This document shows positions 25,084-35,383 of a stretch of DNA of 64,000 nucleotides, one piece after another. The DNA is taken from the NCBI GenBank assembly GCA_021404685.1, contig QWHC01000001.1:248001-312000 (forward strand). Reading direction: 5' to 3'. Under the pieces are notes generated by a model that had not been told where the DNA came from, did no database searches, and saw nothing but the letters and a program-made list of their open reading frames with translations. The position numbers and the translations under genes are program-made. Position 1 is the first letter of the stretch, and each line of letters begins with the position of its first letter. This DNA is from Chloroflexi bacterium CFX4 (GTDB lineage: Bacteria; Chloroflexota; Anaerolineae; Aggregatilineales; UBA2796).

Positions 25084-25320
25084 ACTGAAAGCCCTTTCAA
25101 GGCATAATTATAGCGCGATGTGTGCTAAAAGCGCAGTGGGAAACAAAAACGCAAGCGTAGTGAAAATGGAGAGGGTAAGGCGTGCCAAAGTTGTGTGAAG
25201 CACACCTCAGGTTAGCTGTTGCCTCACGCTCCGCTTCCCTTTTCCTGCTGGCGGGCTAGGCATAAGGGATGGTTGCATGGTTGCAACCCAGACCATTCCC
25301 ACACCCGTTCGACCTTAACA

Positions 25321-25371: not shown

Positions 25372-25459
25372 GGAGGGATGGCAGAGTGGTTGATTGCGGC
25401 GCTCTTGAAAAGCGTTGTGGCGCTAGACGTCACCGGGGGTTCGAATCCCTCTCCCTCCG
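25372..25459 (+). tRNA. tRNA-Ser (anticodon UGA)
   Basis: 88 nt. Acceptor GGAGGGA pairs with TCCCTCC, discriminator G. The anticodon loop CTTGAAA gives UGA. A long variable arm marks a class II serine tRNA, and the T arm is GGGGG-TTCGAAT-CCCTC. CCA is not encoded. A long open frame from 25219 runs across it and is spurious there. Confidence 0.96.
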
Positions 25460-25480
25460 CACAATATTACCTTAGGCACA

Positions 25481-25695: not shown

Positions 25696-28491
25696 ATGAG
25701 CTATTTTTCAATGCCCTTAAAAGGGTTGCAGGCGGCTGCCAACCGTGCCATAAACGCACTGGCAGCCCTTGTACAGCGCCTTGCCGCGCCCAACACGCTG
25801 CCAATTGCTGAGCCTATTCAGCTTGATTTTACTGTGAACGTGCTACGCCCTGATGATCTGTTCGTGGCAACGCTTGGCTTTGCCAATTTGCGCCTGATCA
25901 AGGGCAACCTGACCGCACTGCCGCGCTTGGTGGCGCTGCGTGAGGCACCTTCGTATATTGTGCTTTACCTGCCGCCGCAAAGCCTGGGTGAGCAAGACGC
26001 CAAACGGCTTGCCAAACCTAGCCTGCTGGTCTACCAATTAAAGCCTGAGTCGCTGCCGTTGGAATACACCTTAGAGCGCTTGCTAGAGGCGTGCGGTCAG
26101 GCACACCTGATTGTTTCAGCAGGGCTTGCCGCGCCACACGGACACGCCGCACGGCGAGATCGAATTCATCTGGAGGTGGAAGAAGGAATTTTCACCGCCG
26201 TTGAAGCGCCCTACCGTTTGGTGCTTTCACCCATCGCTGAGGCAGCCTTCACCGAAATTGCCCTACCGCAGCCCGACCGCGCCACTGGACGTACACCGGT
26301 TTGGCATATGCATCTTGCCCGCACGGCAGCGCGTGCCGTTTGGTCGCCAGATTTGGCGGCACCACAGGGCGAGGCGGGCAAGCAGCGCGCTGCGATTGCA
26401 CGCCAAACGGCTGATCAGCGCAGCGTGCCGCCCGGCGTTGAAAATCCCACCCTGAATGTTGAGGTGCTAACGCTCAGCGCGCTCGGCGCAACCTTCGATT
26501 TGACCTTTGCGCCATCAAACGCGGCGCGGCTTGGTTTGAGCGCCGCCGGCTGGTCAACACATGGCGCACAAGGGCGCACCACTGCCCAGATCGGTGGTGA
26601 GCGCGGCTATTTGCTGCCCTTTGGTCATATGGCAGTCTTGGTGCAAGGCACGCAGCGCCGCTTCACTGCCCAAGGCGCCGCGTTGGTCGCAGGGCGTTAT
26701 ATCGCCGTGCAGCAGCCCGAACTTACTTTCAATCGGCGCGATTTGCCCTTCAAGACAATCCGCATCGTCACACCCTACACACCCGACTTGGCCGATCCAC
26801 GCGATCACGAGGCGGCACGCCTTGCCGATCAGGGCGAGCGCGCTTTCTGGATCAAGCTGCCTGCTGAGGGCGACCTTGCCGATTATCACTTTCAGCTAGA
26901 GGCAGTTGATCACGCGGACCGAACCATCCGCTTCAGCGCACCACTGGTCTTTGTGGCAGAGGCGCTCACCGATCCCGCCAGCGGCGCACTGACGGGCATC
27001 AAGCGCGTGATTGAGGCATATAACAACGCGGCGCAGCCTTTGGCGCTCCACGCACAGCCCGTTGCCTTTGCGCCAAGCCGCGCCGAAGGTGACACCACAC
27101 TCTACACACACACGCTGACGCTTGGTGCAGCCTTTGCCCTTGAAACACCTTATTTTCAGCCGACCATGTTATCGGCAAGCGTTACGCTGCCGGCTTTGAG
27201 TGCCTTTGGCGTGGCGGATTCTGAACCGCAGCGCCTTGTGTGGGAAGCAAGCTACAGCACACAGCCCGATCCTGATCAGTTCGGGAACAGTGGTGAGGTC
27301 TTTGCGCGGTTGGCAGCACCATACCCGATCCGCTTTGCGCCTAACCAGCTTGGCGGCATTGCAACGCTCGCCATGGCGGTGGAAGGCATCTCGCGGCGCT
27401 ATGGCGCAGTGGGCAACCTGAAAAACATCCGCGATGGCTTATTTCTGCCAGCCCAACTGCTCGAAAATGCGGCGATCTTGGGGAATGTTCCGATAAAAGC
27501 ACTTATCAGCACGATTGCCGCTGACCAAGCCTTGAATGCCGCCGCTATCCCGGTTTTGGCGGCAAACACACACAGCGCCCGCTACCGTTGGCACGTTGAA
27601 CGGGATCATCTGCGTGAGACGGGCTTTTTCATGCCCGCCGAAAAGGGCAACTTTCACCTTGCGCTGGATAGCGGCGATGCTTACCGCGTTCGTGCTGCCT
27701 TAGAGGATTTCCGCCTGCTGACGCCAGATAACCTGCTAACGCTGGCATTTAAGCGCGTGGCAGCCGCAGAGCGCGCCGGTGTGGCATACCGCGCCGATAT
27801 ACACCTTGAATATGCCCAGTTACGCGGCGTTTTGATGCTGTTGCAGCCTGCTCTCAGCGCTTTGATTCCCGAAGGCTTCAGCCGTTTTAGCAGACAAGCC
27901 TACACAGCCGACTCGCTAGTGGTGGACTATACGCAGGCGTTGCCCAGCCTGCTGCTTGGTCTCAGCCGCACGCACGCGCTGCCCCTGCGCGCCGCGTTGC
28001 GTCTGCCGATGGATGGCGCACCGCTCTCGCTGAGCGTGACGGTTGGCACGCCGACAGGCGGTGATTACAGCCACACCGAGATGGATACCGACGGTGTTCG
28101 CAGCGCGGAAGCCGCCGCAGCATTCAGCGCGCCAATGGCGTTTGAACTGGGCGAGGCGGTTGCCACCAGCAGCGGCTACGGATCGGTGCATCTCAGCTAT
28201 GGGCGCGGTGCGCCAGCCCAGTTTTTTGGTGTTGTGCGCGGCTATGGCATGTTGAGCGCGCTTGGCATTGTAAGGCTCAGCACAACCTTCACCTTGCCAA
28301 TGGGCTACTATGCGGCTGCCAGCAAGCCGCTTGGTGCGGCAACCTTGCGCCTAAATCCGATGCTCGCCTTCTTTGAGCGTGGCGTGCGTTTACCGCTGCA
28401 CCGTGCGCTCAGCAGCACCTATCCCAGTGACGAAGATTGGTCTGCCTATGCAGCCGCCTTTGCTGATGATGACGCCACAACGGAGGCTTAA
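25696..28491 (+). CDS. Giant protein of unknown function, first gene of a three-gene unit
   Basis: Not recognised. 931 residues, no signal peptide, no membrane helix, rich in predicted beta strands and Ala/Leu/Pro. Possible conserved blocks are FTAVEAPYRLVLSP near residue 165, TPVWHMHLARTAARAVWSPD near 195-215, and RRYGAVGNLKNIRDGLF near 570. No nucleotide-binding or protease motif is visible. The frame runs back to 25219 but crosses tRNA-Ser and its terminator. ATG 25696 (GAGG 13 bases upstream) or ATG 25711 is the likely start. Only six bases separate it from the next, even larger gene, whose SD lies inside its last codons, so the two are translationally coupled. Function cannot be assigned. 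Confidence 0.72.
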   Translation: MSYFSMPLKGLQAAANRAINALAALVQRLAAPNTLPIAEPIQLDFTVNVLRPDDLFVATLGFANLRLIKGNLTALPRLVALREAPSYIVLYLPPQSLGEQDAKRLAKPSLLVYQLKPESLPLEYTLERLLEACGQAHLIVSAGLAAPHGHAARRDRIHLEVEEGIFTAVEAPYRLVLSPIAEAAFTEIALPQPDRATGRTPVWHMHLARTAARAVWSPDLAAPQGEAGKQRAAIARQTADQRSVPPGVENPTLNVEVLTLSALGATFDLTFAPSNAARLGLSAAGWSTHGAQGRTTAQIGGERGYLLPFGHMAVLVQGTQRRFTAQGAALVAGRYIAVQQPELTFNRRDLPFKTIRIVTPYTPDLADPRDHEAARLADQGERAFWIKLPAEGDLADYHFQLEAVDHADRTIRFSAPLVFVAEALTDPASGALTGIKRVIEAYNNAAQPLALHAQPVAFAPSRAEGDTTLYTHTLTLGAAFALETPYFQPTMLSASVTLPALSAFGVADSEPQRLVWEASYSTQPDPDQFGNSGEVFARLAAPYPIRFAPNQLGGIATLAMAVEGISRRYGAVGNLKNIRDGLFLPAQLLENAAILGNVPIKALISTIAADQALNAAAIPVLAANTHSARYRWHVERDHLRETGFFMPAEKGNFHLALDSGDAYRVRAALEDFRLLTPDNLLTLAFKRVAAAERAGVAYRADIHLEYAQLRGVLMLLQPALSALIPEGFSRFSRQAYTADSLVVDYTQALPSLLLGLSRTHALPLRAALRLPMDGAPLSLSVTVGTPTGGDYSHTEMDTDGVRSAEAAAAFSAPMAFELGEAVATSSGYGSVHLSYGRGAPAQFFGVVRGYGMLSALGIVRLSTTFTLPMGYYAAASKPLGAATLRLNPMLAFFERGVRLPLHRALSSTYPSDEDWSAYAAAFADDDATTEA

Positions 28492-28497
28492 CCGCGT

Positions 28498-31400
28498 ATG
28501 AACGCACAAACCTTGATTCTCACCGCCTTGCCAAACGGCATTGCGGCGGATACATTGCGCCTTTCAGTTTATTTTGCGCCGCGTTTGTGGACGCAAGAGC
28601 GCGCAGCGCAGGCGCTCTCGCTAGCGCAATTTCCCGATTTTTGGGATTTTCCCGCCCAAGTGGAAGGCATGACCTTCACCGTCCAGTTTGAGAACGGCGC
28701 GACCTTCAGCGATCTGAAACGGGCAAATACGGATGCCTTGCGCGCCGATATGTGGCAGGTGCTTTTCAAGCAGCCGCCTTATGTGGAAGATTTTCCTTAC
28801 GTCGCGCCTTATCAGTTTGCGGCACAGTCGGTTGCCAACGCACCCATTGAGCGGCTACCAATCAGCGCGCTAGGCGCTCTGCTGCGGCAAACTTTCCAAC
28901 AGGGCGGGCGCGCCGCCGATCATGACGTGGAAGGCGTGTTCGGCAAATTACAAGCGGTGCTGGCTGCCGAAAGCACACCGCCTAAAGCTGATCTGGCAAC
29001 GCTCTTAGACTTTCATCAGGTGCTTGCCTTGCTCGGCAATTTTCCTGAATTGCTGCGCGCCCTTGGCTTGGTCGTTGATCTGGAAGTGCCGCTCACTGCT
29101 GAGATTCCGCGTGCGGCAGCCACCACCGAAGGCGTCAGCGTGCAGGTGTTGGCACACTGGACGCCAAAACTTGCCAGCACATATACCTATAGCCCGCGCA
29201 CACATTACATCCTGAACGAAAGGCGCTTTATGGCTGCGCCGCGCCCTGAGTCCTATCTGCGGGAAGGACTATTCCGCATGGACGACTCGGCGCGCTTTGC
29301 CGTGCAGCAGGTAGATGTGCTTGGTGCGGCGCTGCAAGCCATGCACAGCAGCACATTGCCGCCACTGCGGACGGTTGGCTTGGCAGTCCTTCAGCGTGAC
29401 CTGCCTGAACAACTGCAAGCGCATGCTCGCCATGCTGAGGTGCTTAACAACGCCTTGCAGGCAGATGGTGTGCCAACGGCTGCACTTTACGCTGAGGACG
29501 TGCTGCGCGGCTTTCGCCTTGATGTGTGGGATTCGGTTTCCAAGCGCTGGCACAGCGTTCATCAGCGGCGGAGCGCCTTCGATTTCATCGGCACCAGCGG
29601 CGCAAAAATCCGTGTGACCGATGAACAAATCAGCGAAGGCTTTGCCCAAGTCAGCCTGCGTGAGGCGGCAGATGGCAAAGGTCTGGTTGCCGATGAAACG
29701 CTTCTGGTCTGGGATGGCTGGAGCCTGAGCGCGCCGCGCCCAAGCAAGGCATTGGATGATCAAGCCCAGTCAGACGTGGCAAACGGCGATCTGCTAACAC
29801 CTTTCGGCATAGAAGCGCACTTTAGCGCTGCGCCGCGCACCTTGCCACGCTTGCGCTTTGGCAGAAGCTATCGGCTGCGGCTGCGTGCCGTGGATTTGGC
29901 AGGCAACAGCGTTTTCATGCCCAACACAGCCGATTTTCAGCAAACACAGGCAGAATGCAGCGCGCTGATCACCTTTCAGCGCCACGAGCCAATTGCACCA
30001 CCGATTGTGTTGCCGCGCAGCGTGCCTGCCTACGGCGAATCGCTGGAGACGTTGGTCGTCCGCAGTGGCGCAGGCAGCGATCACGATACGGCGCGCAGTG
30101 AACGCCATTTTGCGCCGCCGCCGCTTAATCTGATCCACGCTGAATGGTATGGCGCGTTCGATGGTAAACCATCCGAAGAGGCACAGGCGCTGCGCGGACG
30201 GACGTTCAAAGTGGTTGGCGAACAGCCGCCAGAGTCTGCTTTGTTGATGTCCGAAGTGGACTTCATGCCATTCTACCAACCTGATGCGCTTGGGCGGAAC
30301 GTCGCGCTCTCTGGATTGCGCCAAGAAGAAGGCTTCTGGCTGATGCCGGAGCTGGATTTCGCGCCGTTCTATCTGCCTGATGCGCTTGGGCGCGGCGTGA
30401 TTTTCTATGGCTTGCCCGGTGTGCCAGAAGGCGAGCCGTTCCGCGTGCCTTTTGAGGGCAGCTATCCTAATTTGTTGCCGTTCCGCCTGCGCCTTGTTGC
30501 CATTGGCGCGCACGAGACGCCGCAGCCGCCACAGTACGGCGTGCGTATTCCGAACGCCTCCGCCCTGCTGACGGTGCAGCTTCGCCCTTCGGAAGTGCGG
30601 CAGGTGCGCTATGCCACCTATGCCGATGAAGCAGACCTTCAAGCGCACGGCTTGCGCGCTTGGCTGAATGAAACAGCCGATCCGACGCCGCTGCTAACGC
30701 CATTCCGCAGCCTGACGCTCATTCATGCTGCCGCGCAGCCGCTTGCCGCGCCGCAGATCACGGCGTTGCGTGCAGCACGCACCTATGGCGATACGGCGGT
30801 GCGCCTGAGCGGCACTGCTACGCTGCACGCCGCCAGCACGGGCAAGCTCGATCTGCTCGCCACTTGGACAGAACCACACGATGATCCCGCACATCCCTTC
30901 GATGCTGCCAAGCCGCGCAGCGCGCTTTTCGGTGCGCTGCCCGTCAGCACGGATCAGGACTCGTTCAGCTTTACTGATGTGTTGCAGCACTTTGGCGATA
31001 CCAAGTACCGCGAGGTGACCTATACACCTATCGCGGCGACTAGGTTCAATACCTACTTTGATCCCGCGCTCTTTGCGGATGACGCCACGCTTGAAAGCGT
31101 GCGCCCAACCGCCGAAGAACGCAAACACGGCGTTGGCGAGAAGCGAATCGCCATTTTGAACAGCGCTCGCCCCTTGCCGCCGCAGATTGCCTACATCGTG
31201 CCGAGTTTTGGCTGGCAGGCTGCCAAGCATGTGCCAAACACCGATGGCAGCGCACAAGTAGCGCTTATGCGGCAAGGCGGCAGCCTACGCATTTACCTGA
31301 AGCGCCCGTGGTTCAGCAGCGGCGCGGGCGAGATGCTCGGCGTGGTCTTTCGCCGTGCGCCCTTTGCCGAAACGCCCGCCGCTATGCGCGCCTATCTGAC

Positions 31401-32073
31401 GCAATGGGGCAGCGATCCGCTCTGGGAGAGCAGCGCGCCCGTTGCCATGCCAAGCGCTGAGAACTTCCTGAACGCCGCGCCGCATTTCGGCGTAACGTTG
31501 GCAGAATTTGCTGACCAAACCAATCTGATCGGCGTCGCACCCTATCCCGTCAGCTATGATGCAGCGCGCAGCCTATGGTATGCCGATGTAACGCTGAACG
31601 TTGGCGCGGCTTACTTCCCCTTTGTGCGGTTGGCGTTGGCGCGCTACCAACCCAACAGCATCGCAGACGCGCACCTTTCGCCCATCATCCTGAGCGATTT
31701 TGCTCAACTGCCACCAGATCGGACGTTGCAGATCACCTTCAGTGCGGATAAGCAGCAGATTGCCCTTGCCCTTGAAGGTATCAGCTACCGCCCCAGCGCA
31801 GAGACGCCGCGCCGCTTGATCGAGGCGCGCCTTGAGCGCAAACGCACGGATATGACCGGCGATTTGGCGTGGGAGCCCGCCGCTTTTGTGGCAGCCGAGA
31901 CGGAACACACTGACTCGGTGTGGCGCGGGGCGCTTACGCTCAGCGAGCCATATCGCGCCGAGACTTTCCGCCTTGCCCTGACCGAATCGGAGCCGCTGCC
32001 CTACGATGCCACCAACGGCGAAGGGCTGATCAATGTGGGACGTACCATCTCCGCCTACCTGTGGACGTTTTAG
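28498..32073 (+). CDS. Giant protein of unknown function, second gene of the unit
   Basis: Not recognised. 1191 residues, soluble, mostly beta with some helical stretches at 100-190. A near-tandem motif occurs around residues 585-640: EVDFMPFYQPDALGRNVALSGL, then ELDFAPFYLPDALGRGVIFYGL. The C-terminal part has YIVPSFGWQAAKHV and the block FVRLALARYQPNSIADAHLSPIILSDFAQL, which looks like a conserved module, and it ends in TF. GGAGG at 28482-28486 serves as SD. The gene is followed, after 43 bases, by the phosphotransferase-like gene. Size, pairing and lack of targeting signals suggest a large cytosolic assembly, but this is inference. Confidence 0.72.
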   Translation: MNAQTLILTALPNGIAADTLRLSVYFAPRLWTQERAAQALSLAQFPDFWDFPAQVEGMTFTVQFENGATFSDLKRANTDALRADMWQVLFKQPPYVEDFPYVAPYQFAAQSVANAPIERLPISALGALLRQTFQQGGRAADHDVEGVFGKLQAVLAAESTPPKADLATLLDFHQVLALLGNFPELLRALGLVVDLEVPLTAEIPRAAATTEGVSVQVLAHWTPKLASTYTYSPRTHYILNERRFMAAPRPESYLREGLFRMDDSARFAVQQVDVLGAALQAMHSSTLPPLRTVGLAVLQRDLPEQLQAHARHAEVLNNALQADGVPTAALYAEDVLRGFRLDVWDSVSKRWHSVHQRRSAFDFIGTSGAKIRVTDEQISEGFAQVSLREAADGKGLVADETLLVWDGWSLSAPRPSKALDDQAQSDVANGDLLTPFGIEAHFSAAPRTLPRLRFGRSYRLRLRAVDLAGNSVFMPNTADFQQTQAECSALITFQRHEPIAPPIVLPRSVPAYGESLETLVVRSGAGSDHDTARSERHFAPPPLNLIHAEWYGAFDGKPSEEAQALRGRTFKVVGEQPPESALLMSEVDFMPFYQPDALGRNVALSGLRQEEGFWLMPELDFAPFYLPDALGRGVIFYGLPGVPEGEPFRVPFEGSYPNLLPFRLRLVAIGAHETPQPPQYGVRIPNASALLTVQLRPSEVRQVRYATYADEADLQAHGLRAWLNETADPTPLLTPFRSLTLIHAAAQPLAAPQITALRAARTYGDTAVRLSGTATLHAASTGKLDLLATWTEPHDDPAHPFDAAKPRSALFGALPVSTDQDSFSFTDVLQHFGDTKYREVTYTPIAATRFNTYFDPALFADDATLESVRPTAEERKHGVGEKRIAILNSARPLPPQIAYIVPSFGWQAAKHVPNTDGSAQVALMRQGGSLRIYLKRPWFSSGAGEMLGVVFRRAPFAETPAAMRAYLTQWGSDPLWESSAPVAMPSAENFLNAAPHFGVTLAEFADQTNLIGVAPYPVSYDAARSLWYADVTLNVGAAYFPFVRLALARYQPNSIADAHLSPIILSDFAQLPPDRTLQITFSADKQQIALALEGISYRPSAETPRRLIEARLERKRTDMTGDLAWEPAAFVAAETEHTDSVWRGALTLSEPYRAETFRLALTESEPLPYDATNGEGLINVGRTISAYLWTF

Positions 32074-32116
32074 CAGGTAGGCGTGAAGCAATTAGCAATA
32101 GGAGCAGCTGATCACG

Positions 32117-34432
32117 ATGAGCGTGAGCTACTACGGCAAACTGACAGGCAAAAAAGAACGTCTGTGGTTGCCGCTTGGCTATGGGAATGCGGCAAAGTAT
32201 GGGATTGGCGCAAAGGCGGCACTGCTGGACGTGGCACGGCGCTATGGGTTGCCGGTGCCGCCCGGCATTGTGCTAGTGGATGAGGCGTGGCGGCGCGCGC
32301 TGGGTAGCGGTTTGGTGCGCCGCAGCGATAGCGGTGCGGTCAGCGTGCCAGACCCGTCCCGCCTGATTTTTGCCATCAGCTTCCCAAACTTTGAGTGGGA
32401 GTTGCCGGGTCCGTTTGCGGTGCGCTCTGCGTTTTCGGCAGAGGATAGCACAGCCGAGAGCATGGCGGGCTATTTCACCTCTCGCCTGCATGTGGATGCC
32501 CGCGATCCTATTCAGCTTGCCGAAGCACTGTGCGCCGTCTGGGAATCAGCGGAACGCTATGCCGAGTCGGGCGGCGAACTGCGCCGCGATGTGCTGCTGC
32601 TGCGGATGGTGAACGCCACGCACAGCGGCGTCGCCTTCACCGAACACGCGCACGCCGATGATCGGGTCAACTTCACCGAAGGTTTGGCGGACAAGCTGGT
32701 CAGTGGTGCGGTGGAGGGCGAATCGCTCAGTTTGCCCAAGCTGCGGCGCGGCGAAAAGCCTGACAGCCAGCAGCCAGCTTGGGCAGCGCGTTTACAGGTG
32801 CTGCTGCGCGATGTACGGCGCATCTTCAGCCATAAGGGCAGCGGGCGCGATTGGGATATCGAATGGGCGGATGACGGCACGACCTGCTGGCTGATCCAGA
32901 TTCGCCCAATTACGCGCCCAACGCGCCGCAACGAGGCGTTTACCATCGCCAACCACAAAGAGATTTTGCCGCCGCTGCCCTCCATCTTCATGACCCACCT
33001 TGTGGCTTCTTGCGCGGATCGCCTGTTTGCCTATTACCGCCGCTTTGACCGCACCTTGCCCGAAAACCGCCCGTTTATCGAGGTTTTTAACGGACGCCCG
33101 TACATCAATCTCTCGCTGATGGTCGAGATGATGCGGACGTTCGGCTTGCCTTCCAAACTGGTGACGGATTCCATCGGCGGTGAGGTGGAGCGCGATTATC
33201 CCGCCAACCTGCGCCAAATGCTGCGGAAGATCATCCCACTGCTGCGGTTGGGACTGGCGCAGCTTTTCGCGGTGCGCGCTGCCCGCCGCACCTGGCAGAC
33301 CCTGCTTAAGCAGAGCGCGCAGCGCCTCGACACCTTTGAACAGGCAATCCGCGCCGCACAGGACATCTACACACGATTGGTGACGGGCATGTTCTCGTTG
33401 ACGGCGGCGATCAGCCTGCCCATGCTGCTTATGCGGCGTTTGGGCGTGTTGGAAGAACACAGTGCGCGCAGCCGCAGCATCGCTACCGAACTCTACACTG
33501 ATCTAGCGCCGCTGCGCCAGATTGCCGAGCAAAATGCCGCCGTCCGTGAGGCACTTCAGCGTTCAGAACTGCCGGATGATGATCAGTTCCGCGCTGCCTG
33601 GCGCACCTACCTTCAGAAGCATGGGCAGCGCGGCATTTACGAGAGTGACCTCTCGCGTCCGCGCTTTCATGAGCAGCCCGCACCGCTGTTCAGCATGATC
33701 CTTGCGCCGCACACAGGCGCCAAACTGCCGCGCCGTACCCTCAAAGGGCTGTTGACGCTGCCGCTGGCATGGCAGGCAAACCGCACCGTGCGCGCCCGCG
33801 AACTGCTGCGCTACCACACCATGACCGCCTTCGACAGGTTGCGCGCTGCCCTCTTACAGCTTGCCAAGGCTGCCGTCGAACGCGGACAACTGCCCAACGC
33901 CGAGGCGATTTGGGAACTGACGGTTGAGGAAGTTGTGCAGCTTGATGATGGCTGGCAACCTGACACGGTCTTTTTTGCCGAACGGATCGCCGAGATCGCA
34001 CGCCTAAAAATGTTGCCCGTCCCAGACTTGCTGCGCCGCTTTGACGATCTAGAGCGCGATCTGCCGCCTGAGGCGCAGACGCCGCACTTGCACGGCATCA
34101 GCCTGACGACGGGCGATGTTTCCGGACGGGCGTGGGTGCTGCAAGAGCCTGCTCAGACGCCGCCACCGCTTGAGTCACCCGTGATCCTCGTGGCGCGCTC
34201 GGTGGACGCGGGCTGGATTCCGACGTTTGCCCATGTGCAAGGCGTGGTGGTGGAAACCGGCGGCGATCTCTCGCACGGCTCAATCATCTTGCGCGAGATC
34301 GGGCTGCCCGCCGTGACCAACGTCCGCGCTGCCACACGGCACATCCAAACGGGCGACTGGCTGCACCTAAGGGCGGATCGCGGCTTGGTGGTGCTGAAGG
34401 CAGCCTCGCCTGCTGCGGATGACCAACGCTGA
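32117..34432 (+). CDS. PEP-synthase / rifampin-phosphotransferase-like dikinase
   Basis: 771 residues with the three-domain plan of ATP-dependent dikinases. The N-terminal PPDK/PEP-synthase ATP-grasp contains KAALLDVARRYGLPVPPGIV, AVRSAFSAEDS and DIEWADDG...LIQIRPI. A helical middle domain contains EVFNGRPYINLSLMVE. The C-terminal swivelling His domain has GGDLSHGSII, with H720 as phospho-carrier. PEP synthases have in addition a TIM-barrel that binds PEP; none is visible. The plan is therefore that of rifampin phosphotransferases, which transfer ATP beta-phosphate to a small molecule. The acceptor here is unknown. It may act on, or be used with, the two giant proteins encoded upstream. Confidence 0.85.
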   Translation: MSVSYYGKLTGKKERLWLPLGYGNAAKYGIGAKAALLDVARRYGLPVPPGIVLVDEAWRRALGSGLVRRSDSGAVSVPDPSRLIFAISFPNFEWELPGPFAVRSAFSAEDSTAESMAGYFTSRLHVDARDPIQLAEALCAVWESAERYAESGGELRRDVLLLRMVNATHSGVAFTEHAHADDRVNFTEGLADKLVSGAVEGESLSLPKLRRGEKPDSQQPAWAARLQVLLRDVRRIFSHKGSGRDWDIEWADDGTTCWLIQIRPITRPTRRNEAFTIANHKEILPPLPSIFMTHLVASCADRLFAYYRRFDRTLPENRPFIEVFNGRPYINLSLMVEMMRTFGLPSKLVTDSIGGEVERDYPANLRQMLRKIIPLLRLGLAQLFAVRAARRTWQTLLKQSAQRLDTFEQAIRAAQDIYTRLVTGMFSLTAAISLPMLLMRRLGVLEEHSARSRSIATELYTDLAPLRQIAEQNAAVREALQRSELPDDDQFRAAWRTYLQKHGQRGIYESDLSRPRFHEQPAPLFSMILAPHTGAKLPRRTLKGLLTLPLAWQANRTVRARELLRYHTMTAFDRLRAALLQLAKAAVERGQLPNAEAIWELTVEEVVQLDDGWQPDTVFFAERIAEIARLKMLPVPDLLRRFDDLERDLPPEAQTPHLHGISLTTGDVSGRAWVLQEPAQTPPPLESPVILVARSVDAGWIPTFAHVQGVVVETGGDLSHGSIILREIGLPAVTNVRAATRHIQTGDWLHLRADRGLVVLKAASPAADDQR

Positions 34433-34771
34433 ATGGTTACCAATGCGTTTGTGAAGCTGCACAAACTGTTCCCAGTGGTTGATAAAGTGTGTGTTGGCGG
34501 GAAAAACCTGCCCGAAACATCGTCTGTGCCGCACCCTTGTGCGCCTGACAGGGATGAACTAGGCATTCAGCCAACAGGCATCTTTAAGACAGAATTTTTA
34601 CAAAATTCACAAAATCTGCATTTTGCATCACCATAAATAGACGGGGTGAAGGGTTTAGCTACAGCTTTTTTACAATTTCTTCATAAACAATTGCTTGACA
34701 TTTCTTAACATTGCGCCTCATAATGAACTATGCGTCTAAGCGTTTATCGTCCTACAAGGGGGAAATTTTCT
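34433..34771 (+). other. AT-rich intergenic region with promoter of secreted-protein gene
   Basis: No credible gene. A weak hairpin lies near 34496-34512. An AT-rich inverted repeat, GAATTTT-TAC-AAAATTC, lies at 34592-34608 and could be an operator. A promoter follows: TTGACA (34695-34700), 18-base spacer, CATAAT (34719-34724). The SD is AGGGGGA near 34757. The short frame 34433-34636 has no SD and is not counted as a gene. Confidence 0.6.
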
Positions 34772-35383
34772 ATGAAGAGCCTTAAGCGTAGTTTGTTGGT
34801 GTTGGCTATTTTTGCCTTTGTTCTCACTTTTGTTGGCGCGGTGGATGTGAAGCCTGCCGCCGCCGCCGCGCAAGCGAATTTCAGCGTCACCTGCTCCACT
34901 GTGATCTTACGCATCACGGGCGCACCGGCTGGCGCACGCTATGATTTGCTTGTTTTTATCGCTGAGACCGGTTTTATTGATCTTTTACCATCTCAGGTAG
35001 TGGATGCCAATGGCAACCTGACACTGTCCATCAACTTCCCAGAAGTACCAGATGGCACGCTCATCTATGCCGATACATGGCAATACAACCCACTCATTGT
35101 TAACTTTGCTTCCATCTCCAAGAATTGCGGCTTTGAGGGTTTCCCTGTGCCAGCGGGCTTCGTGCTGGCAGAGATCACCTGCGATGTGACCGTCTTCCAA
35201 CTGCCCAACCCCGATTTTCCAACTTCGGCAAAGCTGAAGAACGGGCAAACATGGTTTGCGAATCCCAAGTCTGTACCAGCCCAGATCAGCACTTTCTACG
35301 GTGAATGGACAGAAGTGCATGTGGCGGGTCCACGCACAGGGTATATTCCAACGGTCTGTGTGAAGTTCATCACCGGACGCTAA
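34772..35383 (+). CDS. Secreted protein with possible C-terminal SH3-like domain
   Basis: 203 residues: signal peptide MKSLKRSLLVLAIFAFVL with cleavage after AAAAA near residue 34. Then comes an immunoglobulin-like or beta-sandwich domain with paired Cys (SVTCSTVILRI ... SKNCGF). A C-terminal region with NGQTWFANPKSVPAQISTFYGEWTEVHVAGPRTGYIP resembles bacterial SH3b domains, which bind cell-wall peptides. The start at 34772 follows a strong SD; the frame reaches 34730. Own promoter and terminator, so monocistronic. Function unknown. Confidence 0.75.
   Translation: MKSLKRSLLVLAIFAFVLTFVGAVDVKPAAAAAQANFSVTCSTVILRITGAPAGARYDLLVFIAETGFIDLLPSQVVDANGNLTLSINFPEVPDGTLIYADTWQYNPLIVNFASISKNCGFEGFPVPAGFVLAEITCDVTVFQLPNPDFPTSAKLKNGQTWFANPKSVPAQISTFYGEWTEVHVAGPRTGYIPTVCVKFITGR

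Follow-up and report, generated by a model that had tools for sequence, protein, structure and literature searches.

The window analyzed here, a 64,000-nucleotide stretch of a contig of Chloroflexi bacterium CFX4, carries two very long genes (P1 and P2) followed by a gene for a dikinase-like enzyme (DK). An earlier note, made from the letters alone, had proposed that the three work together as an undescribed system lying at a common integration spot. The locus raises the question of which of these genes form a unit, how widespread that unit is, and where its products act.

The locus and its genes

The reading frames and spacings described in the earlier note (931 and 1191 residues, gaps of 6 and 43 bases) were recovered, and the ribosome-binding site of P2 that it placed inside P1 was located (Table 1), so that P1 and P2 are likely translationally coupled. 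A longer mechanical open reading frame for P1, starting at position 25219, crosses the tRNA gene; because it reads through the tRNA, the ATG at 25696 is preferred as the start. Downstream of DK (34730-35383) there is a 217-residue protein with a hydrophobic, signal-like N terminus and without a significant family match.

Table 1. Features of the P1-P2 locus (positions in the window)
Feature	Position	Strand	Description
tRNA-Ser (TGA)	25372..25460	+	Upstream of P1; ends 236 bases before P1
P1	25696..28491	+	931 aa; leading gene of the pair; intact ORF from ATG
P1-P2 junction	28478..28497	+	P2 Shine-Dalgarno GGAGG within the P1 end; 6-base gap
P2	28498..32073	+	1191 aa; trailing gene of the pair; intact ORF
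DK, dikinase-like enzyme	32117..34432	+	771 aa; intact ORF; ATP-grasp and C-terminal His swivel domain

The idea that the tRNA-Ser gene served as an attachment site found no support: the window holds no second copy of its 3' end (att), no tRNA is habitually found beside the other P1-P2 copies, and no atypical composition was seen.

Neither giant protein belongs to a described family, as far as could be tested. Searches of P1 and P2 against Pfam, NCBIfam, and PDB sequences gave zero matches, PHROGs gave nothing informative, and the family profiles of both proteins (from both alignments) found nothing among PDB sequences. The PADLOC profiles, a library restricted to described anti-phage systems, gave no credible hit to the window P1 or P2. 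Since the curated families searched all miss both proteins and a literature search on the pair found no description, we regard the P1-P2 module as undescribed. The absence of recognizable domains in the two giants, stated in the earlier note, thus held up under database searches.

Distribution and conservation of the P1-P2 pair

A profile built from three P2 proteins and run on GTDB genome contigs gave 148 matches, 80 of which were fetched as loci for study; 13 plasmid records with family members came in addition to these. P1 lies directly upstream of P2 on the same strand in all 73 loci that include the 5' end of P2, a count conditioned on P2, through which the relatives were found. The remaining seven are six contigs cut inside P2 and one P2 remnant (L090). 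The gap between the two genes is often 3 to 20 bases. The unconditioned test is given by separate P1 and P2 profile searches of 396 genomes of the class, which found the same nine genomes; a tenth P2 match was a 73-position fragment. Furthermore, P1 and P2 distances across loci are correlated (r 0.90), with none of 2000 permutations reaching an equally high value. P1-P2 is a conserved two-gene module, and the pairing goes far beyond chance.

The pair occurs in ten phyla (Pseudomonadota, Actinomycetota, Chloroflexota, Armatimonadota, Acidobacteriota, Bacteroidota, Rhodothermota, Bacillota, Thermodesulfobacteriota, and Myxococcota), although patchily and partly on plasmids. Close to the window it is rare, being found in 3 of 61 related genomes, including the window's own, and in none of the sampled congeners; among the sampled Chloroflexota genomes about 2.5% have it. 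The phyla are intermingled on the P2 tree, as horizontal transfer would give. Neither clustering nor a Pfam tally of the P1-P2 loci revealed neighbor genes that recur beyond close relatives. For annotators, P1 and P2 represent two new families of roughly 1000 to 3000 residues present in at least ten phyla.

Several loci depart from the common arrangement. Two Chloroflexota genomes carry two pairs each (G501, loci L147 and L148; G482, loci L149 and L150), one P2 copy of the latter being reported with an internal TAG, and only a C-terminal P2 remnant is left at L090 and on two Rhizobiales plasmids (L139 and L140). At L107 (7790-12838), in Streptomyces sp. NRRL S-37, P1 consists of the C-terminal beta-meander behind an unrelated N terminus and P2 lacks about 400 middle positions; this minimal variant suggests that it is the C terminus of P1 that belongs with P2. 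In Streptoalloteichus (L048, 15092-15496), an open reading frame directly 3' of P2 looks like the translation of a repeat array, perhaps of CRISPR.

Virions often contain Ig-like domains, and the pair might descend from phage structural proteins of the tail or baseplate domesticated by bacteria, a history that the Ig-like domains predicted in P2 would fit. One viral contig (L137, 138-14338) does carry P1-P2 near genes for a terminase, a head protease, and a major head protein. However, this was the single match in 2.9 million viral contigs, there was none in 50,697 phage records, and no phage neighbors recur at the other P1-P2 loci. Because the P2 of L137 groups with the copy of Rhodoblastus, the pair there may be cargo or chromosomal flank. 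A phage origin of this kind seems improbable to us.

The adjacent dikinase gene

The domain architecture that the earlier note had ascribed to DK was confirmed: Pfam recognizes PPDK_N (E 9e-15) and, at the C terminus, the PEP-utilizers mobile domain (E 1e-17), but no PEP barrel. The His of the SHGSII motif is residue 720. DK scores far below every NCBIfam equivalog cutoff, for instance 126.6 bits against a cutoff of 999 for rifampin phosphotransferase. A three-gene module in which DK modifies a ligand or a component of the P1-P2 assembly would agree with the shared strand, the spacing of 43 bases, and the good Shine-Dalgarno sequence (AGGAG) that precedes DK. However, no DK homolog was found near P1-P2 in any of the more than 70 other loci examined, and four congeners (G001 to G004) have DK at 69 to 80% identity and lack P1 and P2. 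In the two inspected, G001 and G004, the gene context differs, and DK is preceded by PHP-phosphatase, peroxiredoxin-like, and alpha/beta-hydrolase genes (named from their translations). A further genome (G366) has both DK and P1-P2, 4.9 Mb apart.

DK is an adjacent bystander outside the P1-P2 module, because it is missing from every other P1-P2 locus and is kept without P1 and P2 in four congeners. We consequently rejected the three-gene module, to which we assign hardly any probability. The neighborhood survey had been named in advance as the test of the trio, and it found the homologs of DK and of P1-P2 routinely apart; of the proposed association, the pairing of the two giants stood and the membership of the enzyme did not. 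The unit is thus of two genes and not of three and, as described below, a link to export is added to it.

Predicted structures of P1 and P2

AlphaFold2 models of fair quality were obtained for P1 (pLDDT 81, pTM 0.68) and P2 (pLDDT 84, pTM 0.69). The N-terminal part of the P1 model (about 43-600) is mixed alpha/beta, and the C-terminal part (about 612-911) is an antiparallel beta-meander with strongly amphipathic strands; averaged over the family, one face of the strands between about 733 and 904 is strongly hydrophobic. In the P2 model, Ig/FN3-like beta-sandwiches follow one another in a chain, most clearly at about 745-1191. Motifs of P2 that are highly conserved are GWSL..RPG, LPRLRFG..YR.R.R..DLAGNS, RPWFSSG.GE, and RLAL.RYQP.S. 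These models suggest that P2 is a string of Ig/FN3-like domains and that a long amphipathic beta-meander forms the end of P1.

Structure matches were weak (Z 8-10, with high rmsd) and point to no function. The P2 model resembles FN3 triplets (VIA) at Z 8-9.5, a likeness of domain type only, and the fold search gave no firm fold for P1, which resembled membrane barrels and lipid-handling proteins only weakly. The outer membrane barrel matches of P1 mostly had very high rmsd and were taken merely as a sign of a long antiparallel sheet. The profile and structure searches that the earlier note had recommended for both giants thus placed them in no known family, and what they gave on fold was a weak Ig/FN3-like assignment for P2 and nothing firm for P1. 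Its suggestion that the giants were undescribed agrees with a new pair of families that are beta-rich in the models.

The hydrophobic face of the P1 C-terminal strands and the weak resemblance to barrel and lipid-handling proteins bring to mind a secreted two-component weapon, in which the P1 meander would insert into a target membrane or take lipids from it and the Ig string of P2 would bind the target. A patchy, horizontally spread unit partly located on plasmids would suit such antagonism, as would the lipase genes adjoining single loci (Tle1-like in L053 and patatin-like in L110). Nevertheless, the same hydrophobic alternation is also expected in an ordinary beta-sandwich, no immunity or toxin-like neighbor recurs, and there was no match to a toxin family; we consider this function unlikely. 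A lipase as a regular partner gene was rejected, these neighbors being single cases.

Signals of export

A Tat signal was recognized by pattern in 12 of 72 P1 proteins versus 0 of 3040 internal control windows, calls that combine a regular expression with modest profile scores (four of the P1s tested pass the cutoff of the NCBIfam model TAT_signal_seq, TIGR01409). An example is the twin-arginine-like N terminus SRREVLGLAGAVVIGASP in L033. Two further P1s of this type, from Rhizobium ruizarguesonis and G127, bring the total to 14, distributed over several phyla; the window P1 has no recognizable one. The pattern matched 1 of 80 P2 proteins, spuriously, and no P2 match was credible. On the P2 tree, the Tat state requires 6 to 7 changes.

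A tatA gene lies directly behind P2 in Lentzea fradiae, Lentzea jiangxiensis, and one Sinorhizobium meliloti plasmid (PF02416, E 3e-11, 1.5e-11, and 2.4e-9), and P1 is of the Tat type in all three loci. None of the other loci scanned has tatA in this position, so the three represent two lineages, Lentzea and Sinorhizobium, which are distant on the tree. Because each Lentzea genome has two more TatA/B-family genes elsewhere, the cassette tatA is an extra one there. This linkage offers an entry point at which export is directly testable, and such a test would probe the upper size of folded Tat cargo.

Some P2 proteins carry inserted domains. A laminin-G domain is inserted in the P2 of G055 and G366 (E 2e-18 and 1e-19), and the PG_binding_1 profile matches the P2 of two Streptomyces (E 1.4e-6 and 9.7e-4); a third Streptomyces P2 has a similar peptidoglycan-binding domain by eye. 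Laminin-G and peptidoglycan-binding modules are expected outside the cytoplasm.

Two rhizobial plasmids (L112, 2005-11163; L142, 9893-19213) encode very long P1s with Tat signals, of 3052 and about 3106 residues, and only the Sinorhizobium one has a recognizable tatA behind P2. At L052 (14545-16470), a gene reading as an outer membrane barrel overlaps the end of P2, and a homolog of it is located at L037, 2.7 kb upstream of P1 on the opposite strand; P1 is of the Tat type in both.

No Tat or Sec signal is visible in most P1 copies, that of the window included, and the pair could accordingly be imagined as a cytoplasmic system, for example for anti-phage defense, with the Tat signals as a lineage-specific addition. 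Two genes that are mobile and patchy would also be in keeping with defense. On the other hand, the PADLOC search was empty, no enzymatic domain was recognized, defense neighbors do not recur, and the tatA linkage and the wall and laminin-G domains favor an outside location, so that we give a cytoplasmic role slightly less credit even than a secreted weapon.

Proposed role of the pair

We prefer export because some P1s carry Tat signals, tatA follows P2 at three loci, and laminin-G or peptidoglycan-binding domains are inserted in some P2s. On balance, although with little confidence to spare, we favor P1 and P2 as subunits of a large beta-rich complex, encoded by a mobile two-gene cassette and acting outside the cytoplasm, P1 bearing the export signal. 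The cassette would be self-contained and horizontally transferred, and its two products would form one complex. In several lineages, the Tat signal of P1 would direct export of the folded proteins, aided in some by the extra TatA encoded after P2, and P2, without a signal of its own, would travel out with P1. The Ig/FN3-like chain of P2 could take on binding modules, and the site of action may be the cell surface, the wall, or the medium, where the complex would most likely bind a surface, a polymer, or a neighboring cell, in a structural/adhesive or an antagonistic capacity. The signal-less P1 and P2 of the window might have the same extracellular role through another route. The sequences themselves show that the pair is conserved and co-inherited, that some P1s have Tat signals, that tatA can adjoin P2, and that P2 can hold extra domains; from these we infer the complex, the hitchhiking of P2, and the task.

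A bolder version, which we hold as a tentative and rather doubtful possibility, is that P1-P2(-TatA) is a new type of export cassette, in which giants of up to about 3050 residues would be exported folded by Tat with a TatA of their own and P2 as passenger, yielding an extracellular machine shared across phyla. If true, cargoes of this size would be exceptional for Tat. Tat-bearing P1s are 1064 to 3053 residues long, and Tat cargo has been reported up to about 150 kDa (PMC6708511); many of them would exceed this size, which counts against their export by Tat.

Comparison with known systems

Rifampin phosphotransferase has its ATP-grasp domain first and its swiveling His domain last (PMC4844700). 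DK resembles it and its relatives (PEP synthase-like, PigC/RedH) in the N-terminal ATP-grasp, the C-terminal His swivel, and the absence of a PEP barrel, but it differs in scoring far under the equivalog cutoffs and in being separate from the P1-P2 module.

For P2, the closest comparison is with alpha-2-macroglobulin, complement C3, and FN3 strings, with which its model shares a chain of beta-sandwiches (Foldseek E down to 1e-7). However, TM-scores are about 0.1 and identities 5-13%, so that only the domain type is shared; comparison with the string of macroglobulin domains gave E 1e-7 but a TM of 0.08, and the CxEQ thioester motif of alpha-2-macroglobulin is absent from the window P2.

As to export, phoD of Bacillus subtilis lies upstream of tatAd-tatCd, which encode the translocase on which PhoD strictly depends (PMC3068169). 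The P1 cassette differs from PhoD-TatAd-TatCd in its giant two-gene substrate pair, in the tatA without a tatC noted adjacent, and in the few lineages where this linkage occurs, but both place the gene for a twin-arginine substrate beside a TatA of its own.
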